This document shows, in pieces, positions 1 through 53,035 of a stretch of 64,000 nt of DNA. Numbering within the stretch: the first letter of the stretch is position 1; every line of letters starts with the position of its first letter. Below the pieces are notes generated by a model. The model had not been told where the DNA came from. It saw only the letters and a list, made by a program, of their open reading frames with translations, and searched no databases. Both the position numbers and the translations under genes were made by a program. The stretch is taken from positions 9,174,241-9,238,240 of the forward strand of contig JASSKH010000027.1 of assembly GCA_031763025.1 (NCBI GenBank). The letters run 5' to 3'. This DNA comes from Macrocystis pyrifera. Taxonomy: Eukaryota > Sar > Phaeophyceae > Laminariales > Laminariaceae.

Positions 1-747
1 CGAGAGATAGGGCAGGAGACGCAGCATTGCAAGCCCAAGTCCCGGCACACTCACGTATTTGACGCCAGCTATACTACATGTTTAGTCTCCTCGTTCGTAC
101 GCGTGATATATACACTACTGCGGTGCGGAGTAAGCAGGATTAAGCCGGCGGACGCTGTACAGAAGAAAAAAACAAAAAAAAACAAGAAAACACCGACGTC
201 CAGTACCGGTCCCGAGGTAAAAAAAGCGCTACCGGTACATACGCACAAAGCTTTTGTATACTACCAGGTATACATTATGGGACAAACACTGGTGCAGTCC
301 CGGAAAATTCGGTACCATGTCATACCATATTCCATGGTGCCTGGTATATACCGGTGCGACATGCCACACCACTTGCCACAACCGGCAAAAAACGTGGGAT
401 AGACCAGGTGCCGAAGGCACCGGGAAGGTCACAGGTACTGCAGCTCACGTACACATAAACCCTTTACATAACCGATTTTTAGTAAAGTAGGCACTCGAAA
501 GGAAGCGCGGGATCGCAGGCGAGGCAATTCCCATACCTGGCTGGTACCCTGATACTATACAACTACATTTATTAGCGACGATAAGAAAAATATGGCCAAC
601 CCACGTGTTCTTGATTTGCTGTATTTACCGTATGTTGCTGTGTGTTTTATTTCGGGTCGGGCGGGGGGGGGGGGGGGGGGGGGGGGGGGGGGGGATTCGA
701 CACGACACACGAAACACACTGCTTGATGCTCATTGCTTGCTGCTCAC
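1..747. other. Left-edge intron sequence of the MAP kinase gene
   Basis: No exon with MAP kinase features is seen in any frame. It contains a TACCAGGTA motif at 262-270 and a pure G run at about 661-694 just downstream (in gene sense) of the last recognised exon. Probably all intron. Confidence 0.5.
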
Positions 748-915
748 CGTGTCCATTCGGTCGAGCACCATGTACACGTCCTTGAACTTCTCTACGCTGG
801 GCGGCGGGAGCATGTCGACGATGCGGATGATGTTGTCGTGGTCGAACTGCCGGAGCAGGCGGATCTCGCGAATCATGCGCTTCGCGACCAGCATGTCGTC
901 GAACGCCGATACCAC
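748..915 (-). CDS. MAP kinase exon: C-helix to hinge
   Basis: 56 codons, phase 0 at both ends (acceptor ATCCAG, donor ACG|GTGAGC). It contains AFDD...AKRMIREIRLLRQFDH, the MAP kinase C-helix with the Glu that pairs with the VAVKK lysine, then DNIIRIVD, the PPP....F.DVY strand and the hinge MVLDRMDT. The order and spacing match ERK-type MAP kinases closely. The next expected exon (DLHxII, HRDLKP) is not found in bases 1-747, so the gene runs off the window. The intron to its left carries a G run of more than 30 bases at 661-694. Confidence 0.92.
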
Positions 916-3900
916 CTGGATCGGACGGAAGAGTATCATGACAGGGTACAGGGGACACAAGGAGAGAGACGGCCAGACGCTCAGATTGATAGGTTACTAT
1001 TGCTGCAGCAGTAGCATAACCAGTGACGGGCAGCACCATCACGCGAAACACAGCAATGGCGGAGGCATCGATGATCGACGTAGAAAAAAAAAAAAAGAGA
1101 CGCCACAATAACTTCGATATGAAACCAGCAAAACACGCACGAGAAGGAGGAGAAGAATGAGAAGGAGAAGAGCGAGAGTGACAGTGAGAAGGAGAAGGAG
1201 AAGGAGAAGGAGAAGAACGACCGAAACAAACTGCGCCGACGAGCTCTTGTAAATACCTACACCAACAAAAAACGGAGTATTATACATCGTGAAGCACATA
1301 TCACGGAGCGACAGAGCGGTCGGCACCAGAAACTAAAAAAAAAAAAAAAAAATTGACACCTTCTTAACGGCGACCTTGGTGTCCTTCTTTTTGTCCACCG
1401 CAGACACCACAACCCCGTACCCCCCGCTGCCGATCGTCTTGTTCTGTCCGGTCAAAACCGAGCAAACCAGCGACGGAGGGGGAATGGGTCGAGAGAGGGA
1501 GGGAACGGGATGGGGATGCAAACGGAGGGGGCAGAGAGGAGGGGGGGGTGAGAGGGGAGGATGGGTGCGACAACGAATGTCACCACAAACTATAAACCCA
1601 AAAAAATACCCACCAACCTTACTCTATTTTACCGACGACTACCCCCAGGTGGTATGCGGTGGTATACGATACAGCAAAACAGAGAGGATAACCCAATAGG
1701 CGGTAGAATGTACAGCCGTAGATTTGGACCCGGTCAAAGGCAGCCAACGATGACATGAACACCGCTCGTGTGGATAAAAAAAAAAAATAATAATAAATAA
1801 TAATAATAATAATAATAATAATAATAATAATAATAATAATAATAATTAATAATAATAATAAACAATAACAATATATAATAAAATAATAATAATAAAAATA
1901 AATAAAAATAAAAAAAATAATAATAATAATAATAATAATAATAAACAATAATAATAATAATAATAAATAATAATAATAATAATAATAATAATAAATAATA
2001 ATAATAATATATAATAATAATAATAATAATAACAATAAAATATAAAAAACGACGTACATTACGTTGTATGACCTTTGTTCGATTTGTCCTTTGATACACC
2101 GGCGCAACGCGAACCGAACCCAACAAGCAAGCAGGTTCGAATCGCGGAGGGTGGAAGGAAGGGTGGGCGTGGGTGGGTATGGGGGGGGGGGGTGGGGTGG
2201 TGGTGATGCTCACCATCTCGTAGTGGTCATCCAACTCGAAGCAGAACTGGCCCTGCTTGGTCTCCGCCCACCAGAGCTTGGTGTTGCTTCTCAAGGGCTG
2301 CTTCGAGAGCTTCTCCTTCTCATTCTTGATGAGGGTTTCCAACGCGTTTACCCACTTTGCGGCCGAATTGAAATAAAGTTGAGGCAAAATGGAACGAGTA
2401 AAAAAAAGGAGGCGACAGAGACGGTGGGCAAAAGGAGGAGCTTGATTGATTCGAACCGAGTTCATATCCCACCAACGTAGAACCGTACCAGGTATACAAA
2501 ATGTTCGGGGGCGTGATTAAGAACAGGAACAGATATCAAACAATACGTGAGTAAAAAGTACTGATATCACACAACGTTTGCTTCATTTACACCAGTTTCG
2601 ACGAAATGTCGCTCACTTGTCTTCCTTGTTTTTTACAAAACACATACTGGTACATAGCAGGTGCGGGACCGTCGGAGCGGTAGTCGGCCAACCGGGGTCT
2701 GTGGAAACCCGGCACCCGACGACCTGCGACAGAGAAAGGCAAACTTTCAACTAGTAATACTGCTGTACGTGATAATGTAAGGAATCATTTTCTGTTTTTT
2801 TGTGTGTATATATACGAACATTTCCCCGCAACACCCACCTTACCCGCGACCAAACGCAACAACTGCAAAGGCAGGGAGTAGAATACAGCAGCGTATACGA
2901 GTAGCAGTGGCTACACGCCCCATAGGCAGCATACCAGCATGCCAGCATACCCGTCTGTTAATAGCTGACATGTCAAGGGGAGCGGTTTGAGTTGAGCGCT
3001 ATATACTCGTATTATAACGCGTATAACTGACGAAGAAAAAAACGAACATGCCGCAGCAGTATCATACGAGTAGTCTACGAGGTACCGGCGTATATAAATC
3101 ATACACATCTACCTGGTACTTCTTTAGCATATATTACCAGGGCAAGGAGAACTGAGCACTCGACTCCTGCCCTCTGGGGACAAAACAAAAAAAAAAAACG
3201 GGACAACTCAAACAGGACTCGTATACGAGTATGTAAGTGCGTATACCGGTTAGATTGAGCTCTCAGCAAACACCCCCCCCCCCGCCCCGTCTCGAAAGGG
3301 ATGCGTGGTCAATGGTCAAATGACTAAGGCAAGCAACAAATGAGTACGCCCCCCCCCCCCCCCCCCCCGCCCCCCCCCCCGCGCCCCTCTCGCAGGTTAC
3401 TCGTCGTGTGTACAACAACAAAGCAAGAATAAATTGTTTTCTGCGACCGGCACCCATCATTAGGTAGTATTAGTTACAATAGTCAGCTCCTGCAGTACTT
3501 ACCGCCTGCATTGTTATTACTACTTACGGTGGTCCACAGTTAATAGGACCCACGGCGGTACACACAAAACCCTACATATTTCCCTACTTTTACTCACAAT
3601 ATATGGTCCTGTTCACTATGGTCCCCCGTAATTATATCGATAACAACGTGGACACCCACAATGCGTACGTACGTACATAGCACCACTCACTGGCTCTCAA
3701 GGGGGCAGGCATTGCACGTATCGCCTTGTATTGTGTGTGTTGTCTCCACGTTAAATCGTCTTCACTATTAAACAATACCCACAGCTTCTCATCAGTGCAC
3801 CCAATCTCCGTACGCATCCTATTAATACGAGTATTACAAGGATACTTAACAAAAACAAGTATAACAGCAATTCTGTGGTCACAAAAGACTATTGTGTGAG

Positions 3901-52195: not shown

Positions 52196-52379
52196 GAAAA
52201 GCGAAAGAGGCTGTGACGTCGTGCCACCCTAAAAAGCACCACCTCCCTCCAACCCCGTCCTGAAAGAAAGGCCGTTGTTGCGCCTGGGGTATATATATCT
52301 CGAAAGGAAACAAGCGACTTGCCGGTTGTTGCTATGCCGCTAGCACCGAAATTTGGAATCTCAGGTCACTGTAGTACCG

Positions 52380-52775
52380 GCGCACTGGCCCTCTAATACT
52401 AGGAAGAGGAAATCGGGATACTGAACCTCTAATAAAAATAAGAAACGGTTATACTGACCCTCCAGTACGAATAAGAAACGTACGCAATGAACCTCTGATA
52501 AGAACAATAAGAAGAAGAAACCGGGATACTGACCCTCTCATAAGAAGAAGAAACCGGCATCTTAACCCATTTATAAGAACCAAAAACTGGCATACTGGCC
52601 CTTTTATAAGAACCAAAAACTGGCATACTGACCTATTCACAACAATAAGAAACTCTCATACTGAACCTTTAACAATAAGAAGAAGAAACCGGGACATCGC
52701 CCCTATGATAAGTACGAGAAACCGGCATACGAACCTCCAATAACGGGAATAAGAAACCGGAATACTGACCCACGC
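52380..52775 (+). repeat. AATAAGAAACCGG minisatellite, about 35-45 bp period
   Basis: Units like ATACTGACCCTCTAATAAGA followed by AGAAGAAACCGGC, about ten copies with variable length. AACCAAAAACTGGCATACTG occurs twice in direct succession. Confidence 0.88.
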
Positions 52776-53035
52776 TAGACTCCTCATCTTTGACGAAAAG
52801 GGTGTGTTCCACACTATTAATAATTGTAGTATACCGCATCTGCAAGTCGTACTTCTCCAGAAGTGCCAGGCTGAGATTCTTGTGGGACTCTTTCTTAAGG
52901 GGGGGGGGTACAGGTACAGTATAGTAGTTAGTTCCAACAGGCGAAACTGCTTGCCACGTAGACTACACAAGGAGTTAGACGTATAACAGAAGTCGTTTGT
53001 TTGTCGCTGTGAAGGTGCTAGTTACCTACAGACCT

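Follow-up and report, generated by a model that had tools for sequence, protein, structure and literature searches.

Short TA-bounded words scattered through a stretch of the giant kelp genome, very probably excision footprints of TA-targeting elements

What are the short TA-bounded words that recur all over one stretch of the giant kelp genome, and how did they come to be there? The stretch, which we call the window, comprises 64,000 nucleotides of Macrocystis pyrifera (contig JASSKH010000027.1 of assembly GCA_031763025.1, positions 9,174,241 to 9,238,240), and each word reads as a core between two TAs: TATTAATA (core TTAA) stands at 41 sites, TACCAGGTA/TACCTGGTA (TACC[A/T]GGTA; core CCWGG, W being A or T) at 27, and TACTGCTGTA/TACAGCAGTA (core CAGCAG/CTGCTG) at 16. 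A preliminary description of this DNA, made from its letters alone, took the words either for scars of Tc1/mariner-type excision at TA or for a mobile micro-insert. Our answer is that they are very probably the excision footprints of cut-and-paste elements that target TA, and for TTAA and CCWGG this part of the preliminary description now has strong support, from the polarity of the insertions, from a source element of one word found nested in its own kind, from graded ladders of products and from shared target contexts.

Are the words really in excess? They stand where they had been placed, to within one base, and with strands merged an order-3 Markov background expects far fewer of them: TATTAATA counts 82 (41 palindromic sites) against 5.6 expected, TACCAGGTA/TACCTGGTA 27 against 1.09 and TACTGCTGTA/TACAGCAGTA 16 against 0.49. 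The claimed excess persists, though smaller, under an order-5 model (82 against 52, 27 against 6.9 and 16 against 4.4), the reduction arising because such a model has largely learned the word. The dense patch reported at 20370-20640 is there too, with seven TATTAATA and two CCWGG words, and further words are raised in the window, namely TACGAGTA/TACTCGTA (21) and TACCGGTA (8). The genome searched comprises 537,376,219 bp in 223 contigs (the window being C208:9174241-9238240); for the published assembly, PMC10498591 gives a size of 537 Mb, with 35 scaffolds and 188 contigs in the description and 223 in the table. In a 200-kb sample of this genome chosen by position (loci L100-L119, on two contigs), TATTAATA occurs 32 times against 0 for its reversed control, TACCWGGTA 31 against 3, TACAGCAGTA 24 against 1, and TACAGTA/TACTGTA 69 against 26. 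Per kilobase the window is denser than the sample by about 4 times for TATTAATA, 2.7 times for the CCWGG word and 2 times for the third word. Within the window, all 84 sites of the three kinds lie in positions 1-53000 and none in 53001-64000, which holds 711 of the 4311 TAs (p = 4e-7). This last 11 kb is mostly a tandem repeat resembling a long interspersed nuclear element (LINE), beginning at about 55981, and the absence of scars there is as expected if scars gather with age.

Were the words inserted, or have they been lost elsewhere? Both insertions named in the preliminary description are real and can be seen directly in aligned repeats. One is a TATTAATA scar in repeat X (11342-11349), where other copies, such as that at 45353, have TA (four empty matches, none filled); the second is a TACCAGGTA scar in a copy like SINE-2, a short interspersed nuclear element (28575-28583), where another copy has TA (one empty match, a high-scoring segment pair at window 25437). 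We extended the comparison to a pool of 374,694 bp, made up of the window, loci L035, L042 and L066, 30 loci with the joined word TACCWGGTATTAATA (L070-L099) and the 20 loci chosen by position; since this pool is enriched for words by choice, densities were taken from L100-L119 and the window only. At each TA-core-TA site, repeat copies were matched either to the filled version or to one lacking the core and a single TA, with one mismatch permitted in the filled core; low-complexity sites and arrays were removed, and loci L093, L094 and L096-L099 were dropped as overlapping loci or tandem arrays. Of 86 CCWGG sites, six had empty matches only and none had filled matches only, where other TA-N5-TA gave 7:196 over 1206 sites (p = 1.6e-8); TTAA gave 4:1 (103 sites) against 10:220 for the other TA-N4-TA controls (1279 sites; p = 3.9e-5). 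In all, 10 informative sites (six CCWGG, four TTAA) have a bare TA in the matching copies and no filled copy, with up to 33 empty matches, and each of the six CCWGG insertions has a place of its own (window 28577, L066:2762, L072:383, L075:956, L086:1503 and L112:7630). In aligned repeats, then, the TTAA and CCWGG words are insertions at a single TA.

Which element could have made them? For TTAA a candidate lies within the window. MITE-1, a miniature inverted-repeat transposable element (MITE), is palindromic and 109 bp long including its TAs, and reads TA-TTACGGGGG[A/T]CCATAGT...GTAA-TA, with the tip TTACGGGGG (TTACGG). The pool holds 47 near-full copies, 38 of them flanked by TA on both sides, and in several copies the terminal inverted repeats match at 22 of 22 bases. 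Two copies are nested in other MITE-1s with exactly one TA duplicated (window 45168-45276 and L119 2994-3102), the first of them, 109 bp with both TAs, at ...TTTTTAC-TA-ACGATATTTGG... of its host, so that both the duplication and the tip can be read directly. MITE-1 thus combines TA target duplication and short terminal inverted repeats with a footprint of terminal bases between two TAs, and we identify it as the very probable source of the TA-TTAA-TA scars. It is too short to have coding capacity for a transposase.

MITE-1 is also so abundant that inserts at any one of its TAs can be listed genome-wide, and here the footprints can be seen as a series of products. The site GGTCC-TA-TTTACTATGG carries 278 inserts, each 3-14 bp long (reversed control 0), and among the 100 matches listed, 59 are trims of CCA+TGG: CCAGG 32, CCTGG 16, CCGG 4, CTGG 4, CCAG 2 and CCATGG 1. 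The other 41 include TTTAC duplications (5), CTG/CAG (3), CGAG (2) and many singletons. At the site TTTTTAC-TA-ACAATATTTGG, where whole MITE-1s also land, there are 239 inserts (control 0), and 65 of the 100 matches listed are trims of TTA+TAA: TTAA 45, TTTAA 7, TTA 6, TTAAA 3, TAA 3 and TTATAA 1. Among these same matches there is next to no exchange between the sites, with no member of the CCA ladder at TTTTTAC-TA and one of the TTA ladder (TAA) at GGTCC-TA; the ladders divide by site as 65:0 and 1:59 (Fisher p = 2e-35, over copies that are not independent). Such ladders are those that would be expected from the end joining of 3-nt overhangs.

How would the words be written? At both ends of the element a transposase would cut the transferred strand at the very tip and the non-transferred strand 3 nt further in. 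On either side the donor would then keep TA and, as a 3' overhang, the three terminal bases of the element, and end joining, the route that we suppose, would usually keep four (MITE-1) or five (MITE-2, described below) of the six bases. MITE-1, with the tip TTACGGGGG, would leave TTA+TAA, mostly joined over the common 'TA' to give TTAA; MITE-2, with the tip CCACTCTGACC, would leave CCA+TGG and mostly lose one base, giving CCAGG or CCTGG. A pairing argument may account for the difference, in that TTA could pair with itself over two bases and CCA only with a mismatched A:A. The ladders do begin with all six overhang bases (TTATAA and CCATGG, one case each among the matches listed), and their peaks at TTAA and CCWGG are what 3-nt overhangs predict. 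This geometry has precedents, since for Sleeping Beauty and mariner elements a nick 3 nt inside the element, with the other strand cut at the tip, and 3-nt 3' overhangs that are end-joined into a footprint have been described (PMC7827188), as have in vivo mariner footprints consistent with a break made two or three nucleotides within the element, and the capacity of MITEs of 80-120 bp to transpose in vitro (PMC2642840).

And CCWGG? A search for terminal inverted repeat pairs starting with TA brought up MITE-2, which is palindromic, TA-bounded and 83 bp long (TA-CCACT(C/A)TGACC...GGTCAGAGTGG-TA, tip CCACTCTGACC, CCACTC). With a profile of it, the pool yields about 10 loci at E <= 0.001 and 15 at E <= 0.04; six of the eight near-full pool copies have TA on both sides, and a strict pattern, which itself demands the TAs, matches 94 times per strand genome-wide (control 0), the matches listed for the two strands being the same places because the ends are palindromic. 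Its terminal inverted repeats are present and its flanks imply TA duplication, though no empty site with a nested copy came to light, and it is the likely maker of the CCWGG scars. A diverged half-copy probably lies in the window at 8609-8656, as a weak profile match (E 3e-4). Separately, a literal CCWGG-tipped source was sought and rejected: the pool has 140 non-scar TACC[AT]GG tips, from which no element family emerged, the two clusters of four among them being a SINE-2-like repeat and a local tandem array.

The choice of TA points the same way, as scars and elements prefer the same contexts, clearly for MITE-1 and thinly for MITE-2. CTAG, at 2.9% in the background, holds 9 of 38 MITE-1 copies, 22 of 136 TTAA scars and 0 of 108 CCWGG scars, whereas ATAC, at 16.2% in the background, holds 43 of the 108 CCWGG scars and four of six MITE-2 copies. 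Over ten contexts, MITE-1 correlates with TTAA at r = 0.69 and with CCWGG at r = -0.58.

Could the CCWGG scars have come from something other than MITE-2? The rival that survives best accepts MITE-1 as the source of TTAA and assigns CCWGG to another, perhaps extinct, CCA-tipped TA element, with MITE-2 a bystander. Intact MITE-2 copies are few beside the scars, and the MITE-2 context is thin, with six copies and no overall correlation. But the CC-tipped repeat ends at TA, among the matches listed, are MITE-2, MITE-1 matches and tandem repeats, and the further TACC pairs, again among those listed, lie in a tRNA-like SINE or in one L105 inverted repeat. Moreover, the ladder calls for an overhang of CCA, which is precisely the tip of MITE-2, and the ATAC context that CCWGG favours holds four of six MITE-2 copies. 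We consider this second element unlikely, though worth keeping in mind.

Several results weigh against excision by MITE-1 and MITE-2 and should be set out together. No site was found where one copy has MITE-2 and a second copy CCWGG, a comparison of similar segments at ten loci gave no pair of MITE versus scar, and MITE-2 is scarce (94 strict copies genome-wide, and about 10 pool loci against 121 CCWGG words in the pool). The 278 and 239 inserts are not independent events, because scarred MITE-1 copies may themselves have multiplied, and 41 and 35 of the 100 matches listed at the two sites fall off the ladders. That no CCWGG scar lies in CTAG carries no significance by itself (p = 0.08), MITE-1 contexts also correlate with those of CAGCAG (r = 0.40), and the contexts of the six MITE-2 copies give r = 0.11 with TTAA, -0.01 with CCWGG and 0.06 with CAGCAG. 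Without the filters, the empty-site comparison is noisier and gives 3 empty and 12 filled for TTAA (149 sites) and 7 and 7 for CCWGG (112 sites), with 103 empty and 157 filled for TA-N4-TA controls and 22 and 111 for TA-N5-TA (700 sites each). Nor does TA duplication stand out over small indels in general: TA is duplicated in 57 of 617 events, which is not above other dinucleotides (CA 84), and 15 TA-duplicating cores (AATA) are a single L110 deletion counted repeatedly. The insertion signal resides in particular cores, not in TA-duplicating indels at large.

Might the words themselves be what moves? A mobile micro-insert that copies units of 6-7 bp into TA sites by a mechanism unknown would suit inserts that are tiny, numerous and chained, and it would suit TACTGCTGTA, for which no source is identified. 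It fails to predict graded ladders that match known element tips, or common target contexts, and so it is disfavoured for TTAA and CCWGG and possible only for CAGCAG and CGAG; the two main words do not need it, and as a general account we rate it very improbable. Just as little credence goes to an ancestral origin, with the words as old binding or structural motifs that some repeat copies have since lost. In its favour, protein-binding sites are often palindromes, as TATTAATA is and CCWGG almost is, and one TTAA site has filled matches only; but the 10 informative sites described above show a bare TA, a single TA bears many different cores across copies, and none of the words lie in the final 11 kb, where the tandem LINE-like repeat is. 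Simple-sequence or compositional origin, by slippage of TAC, TTA or CAG microsatellites and with no transposition, draws on a window rich in ACT/AGT and poly-C tracts, on the part of the excess lost against the order-5 background and on the TTTAC tandem duplications at the GGTCC-TA site (5 of the 100 matches listed), and yet it is strongly disfavoured and scarcely credible, given that reversed words are rare, that TA(CAG)nTA forms no slippage ladder and that the inserts strike particular MITE-1 TAs with site-specific cores.

What, then, of the third word? The preliminary description had implied three element families, and two of these are now identified in MITE-1 and MITE-2; the third is missing, as no source element for TACTGCTGTA was found in the pool, where one weak terminal inverted repeat pair has CAG/CTG tips. 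TACTGCTGTA appears twice as an insert in MITE-1 among the 100 matches listed at TTTTTAC-TA (CTGCTG once alone and once chained to TTAA), and the empty-site comparison gave 0 empty to 1 filled over 49 sites. The TA(CAG)nTA series in the 200-kb sample runs 69, 24, 0, 1, and the third word does not resemble ordinary slippage, since (CAG)2 is common and (CAG)3 absent (24 against 0). In the window, it stands at 2758, 4412, 11873 and 13 other sites, and its CTAG context is raised (9 of 60). The shorter CAG/CTG core forms a class that the preliminary description did not list, with a modest case for insertion (2 empty to 5 filled over 91 sites, against 3:179 over 1062 for controls; p = 0.011). Sleeping Beauty leaves the scar C(A/T)G, which this kelp class resembles (9 of the 100 matches listed at TTTTTAC-TA). 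CGAG (74 sites) and CCGG (34 sites) are likewise enriched words, but we do not call them scars in general because they gave 0:5 and 0:10 empty to filled. Finally, the CTGCA inserts at 9453 (repeat X) and 36490 (MITE-1) do exist, and the same 5-bp ACTGC insert is thus found in two unrelated repeats; it lies between T and A with the TA not duplicated, and the kinship to TA-core-TA that had been proposed for it does not hold.

Why do the words so often stand side by side? Nine chains in the window share a TA, in agreement with the preliminary description; seven are of the three named words alone and two involve CGAG or CTGC cores. TACCAGGTATTAATA (13263-13277) is a pair of scars with a common TA, TATTAATATTAATA recurs at 20474-20487, 21708-21721, 29889-29902 and 31073-31086, and TATTAATACCAGGTA (20527-20541) and TACCTGGTACTGCTGTA (23318-23334) are further chains. 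No special process is needed, because a scar gives two TAs in place of one, and later elements could land there and so build chains. Genome-wide, the joined word TACCWGGTATTAATA, which covers either centre base, occurs 559+537 = 1096 times (reversed control 0+1), where a rough hand estimate for random re-use of TAs expects some hundreds of CCWGG-TTAA pairs, regional density varying several-fold. Local arrays at G000:C126:3032746-3230100 (L093, L097 and L098), in which a repeat of about 0.5-1 kb carries TACCAGGTATTAATA, inflate the chain counts there. A rough extrapolation from the 200 kb on two contigs gives 80,000-90,000 sites of each of TATTAATA and TACCWGGTA in 537 Mb. We are tempted by a larger picture, in which we have slightly less belief than doubt: the scars would outnumber surviving elements and form a self-extending lattice of TAs, each scar doubling a TA that is then re-used, so that excision repair would join insertion as a steady writer of intergenic sequence and would leave a countable archive of jumps, from which cut geometry and repair outcome could be read for each family in one assembly. 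CAGCAG would then be a third scar family, and CGAG perhaps a fourth, from elements not yet known or extinct.

How does this compare with known systems? Tc1/mariner-type footprints are a known kind, and what is unusual here is their density and the clean readability of the cutting geometry. The searches made, of open-licence papers, brought up no account of such scars from kelp. The nearest published case found is that of Stowaway in the beta-amylase and DMC1 genes of Triticeae (PMC1925063), which, as described there, likewise involves palindromic MITEs between TAs, leaves 1-4 bp of their terminal repeat next to the TAs as a scar, shows new insertion into a scarred TA and has several footprint variants per site. 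It differs in concerning single loci, whereas the kelp scars are among the window's most over-represented words and their ladder is read at one host site over hundreds of copies; the tips also differ, being TTACGG and CCACTC in kelp and CTCC-type fragments in the Stowaway account (PMC1925063). With Sleeping Beauty and mariner, as presented in PMC7827188 and PMC2642840, the kelp system shares TA duplication, a cut 2-3 nt inside and a footprint from 3' overhangs, and it departs from them in its main products, TTAA and CCWGG. Among brown algae, Ectocarpus is credited with almost 12,000 Mariner-Tc1 copies, mostly non-autonomous (PMC12477816), so abundant non-autonomous elements such as TcMar-N1_Ec32 are a point in common, likened by description only, and TcMar-N1 is 217 bp, unlike MITE-1 and MITE-2; the words 'footprint' and 'excision' occur nowhere in the main text of that paper. 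A survey of DNA-transposon excision in rice likewise treats excisions and footprints genome-wide, Mariner included, there from recent events between two genomes (PMC4423477), here from one genome with a high-copy MITE as the target.

Why does this matter? In the papers cited above, footprints are read at single loci or in paired genomes, and the kelp MITE is a natural landing pad where one assembly makes hundreds of scars readable at the same TA. The landing-pad spectra suggest that two families cut with a 3-nt stagger, and they display a brown algal end-joining spectrum; from scars alone it could become possible to date families or to detect extinct ones. There is also a warning here, in that enriched palindromic words such as TATTAATA and TACCWGGTA may be mistaken for regulatory motifs.

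Further copies of MITE-1 lie at 47611-47718 and 63454-63562 (each with TA on both sides), 42107-42222, 3524-3632 (diverged), 5306-5411 (followed by TATTAATA at 5413), 36396-36509 (with the 5-bp ACTGC insert, which is not a TA-core-TA scar) and 43847-43953, the last adjoining the end of a TTAA-bounded element, famY. This separate palindromic element (about 95-105 bp, tip CCCTTTTAG; window 17879-17977 and 20860-20964, L066 2946-3047) is flanked by TTAA in its L066 copy and looks like a piggyBac-type MITE. As a source of the TTAA word famY was considered and set aside, as it does not explain the word, and so was a piggyBac footprint, since the scar adds six bases to TA and the ladder around TTAA is not precise excision. 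MITE-1 and some of the words are also carried by L035, L042 and L066, the last of which has famY as well; these are contigs of metagenome-assembled genomes (MAGs) in GTDB, labelled Saprospiraceae, Phycisphaera and Flavimaricola (isolates g2/g3_MAG), and they appear to be brown algal DNA that ended up in bacterial bins. At window 55981-64000 the LINE-like reverse transcriptase repeat lies in tandem pieces that share 92-95% identity over kilobases. The reverse transcriptase, looked up as protein in viral and genome contig collections, gave no match there; the hits of a reverse transcriptase fragment include Ectocarpus, and the best of them falls in a contig that bears the label of a bacterial MAG. 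Lastly, a 29-bp tandem array (TCACCCGTGTGATACGGTGTG...) of about 27 units occupies window 34393-35184.

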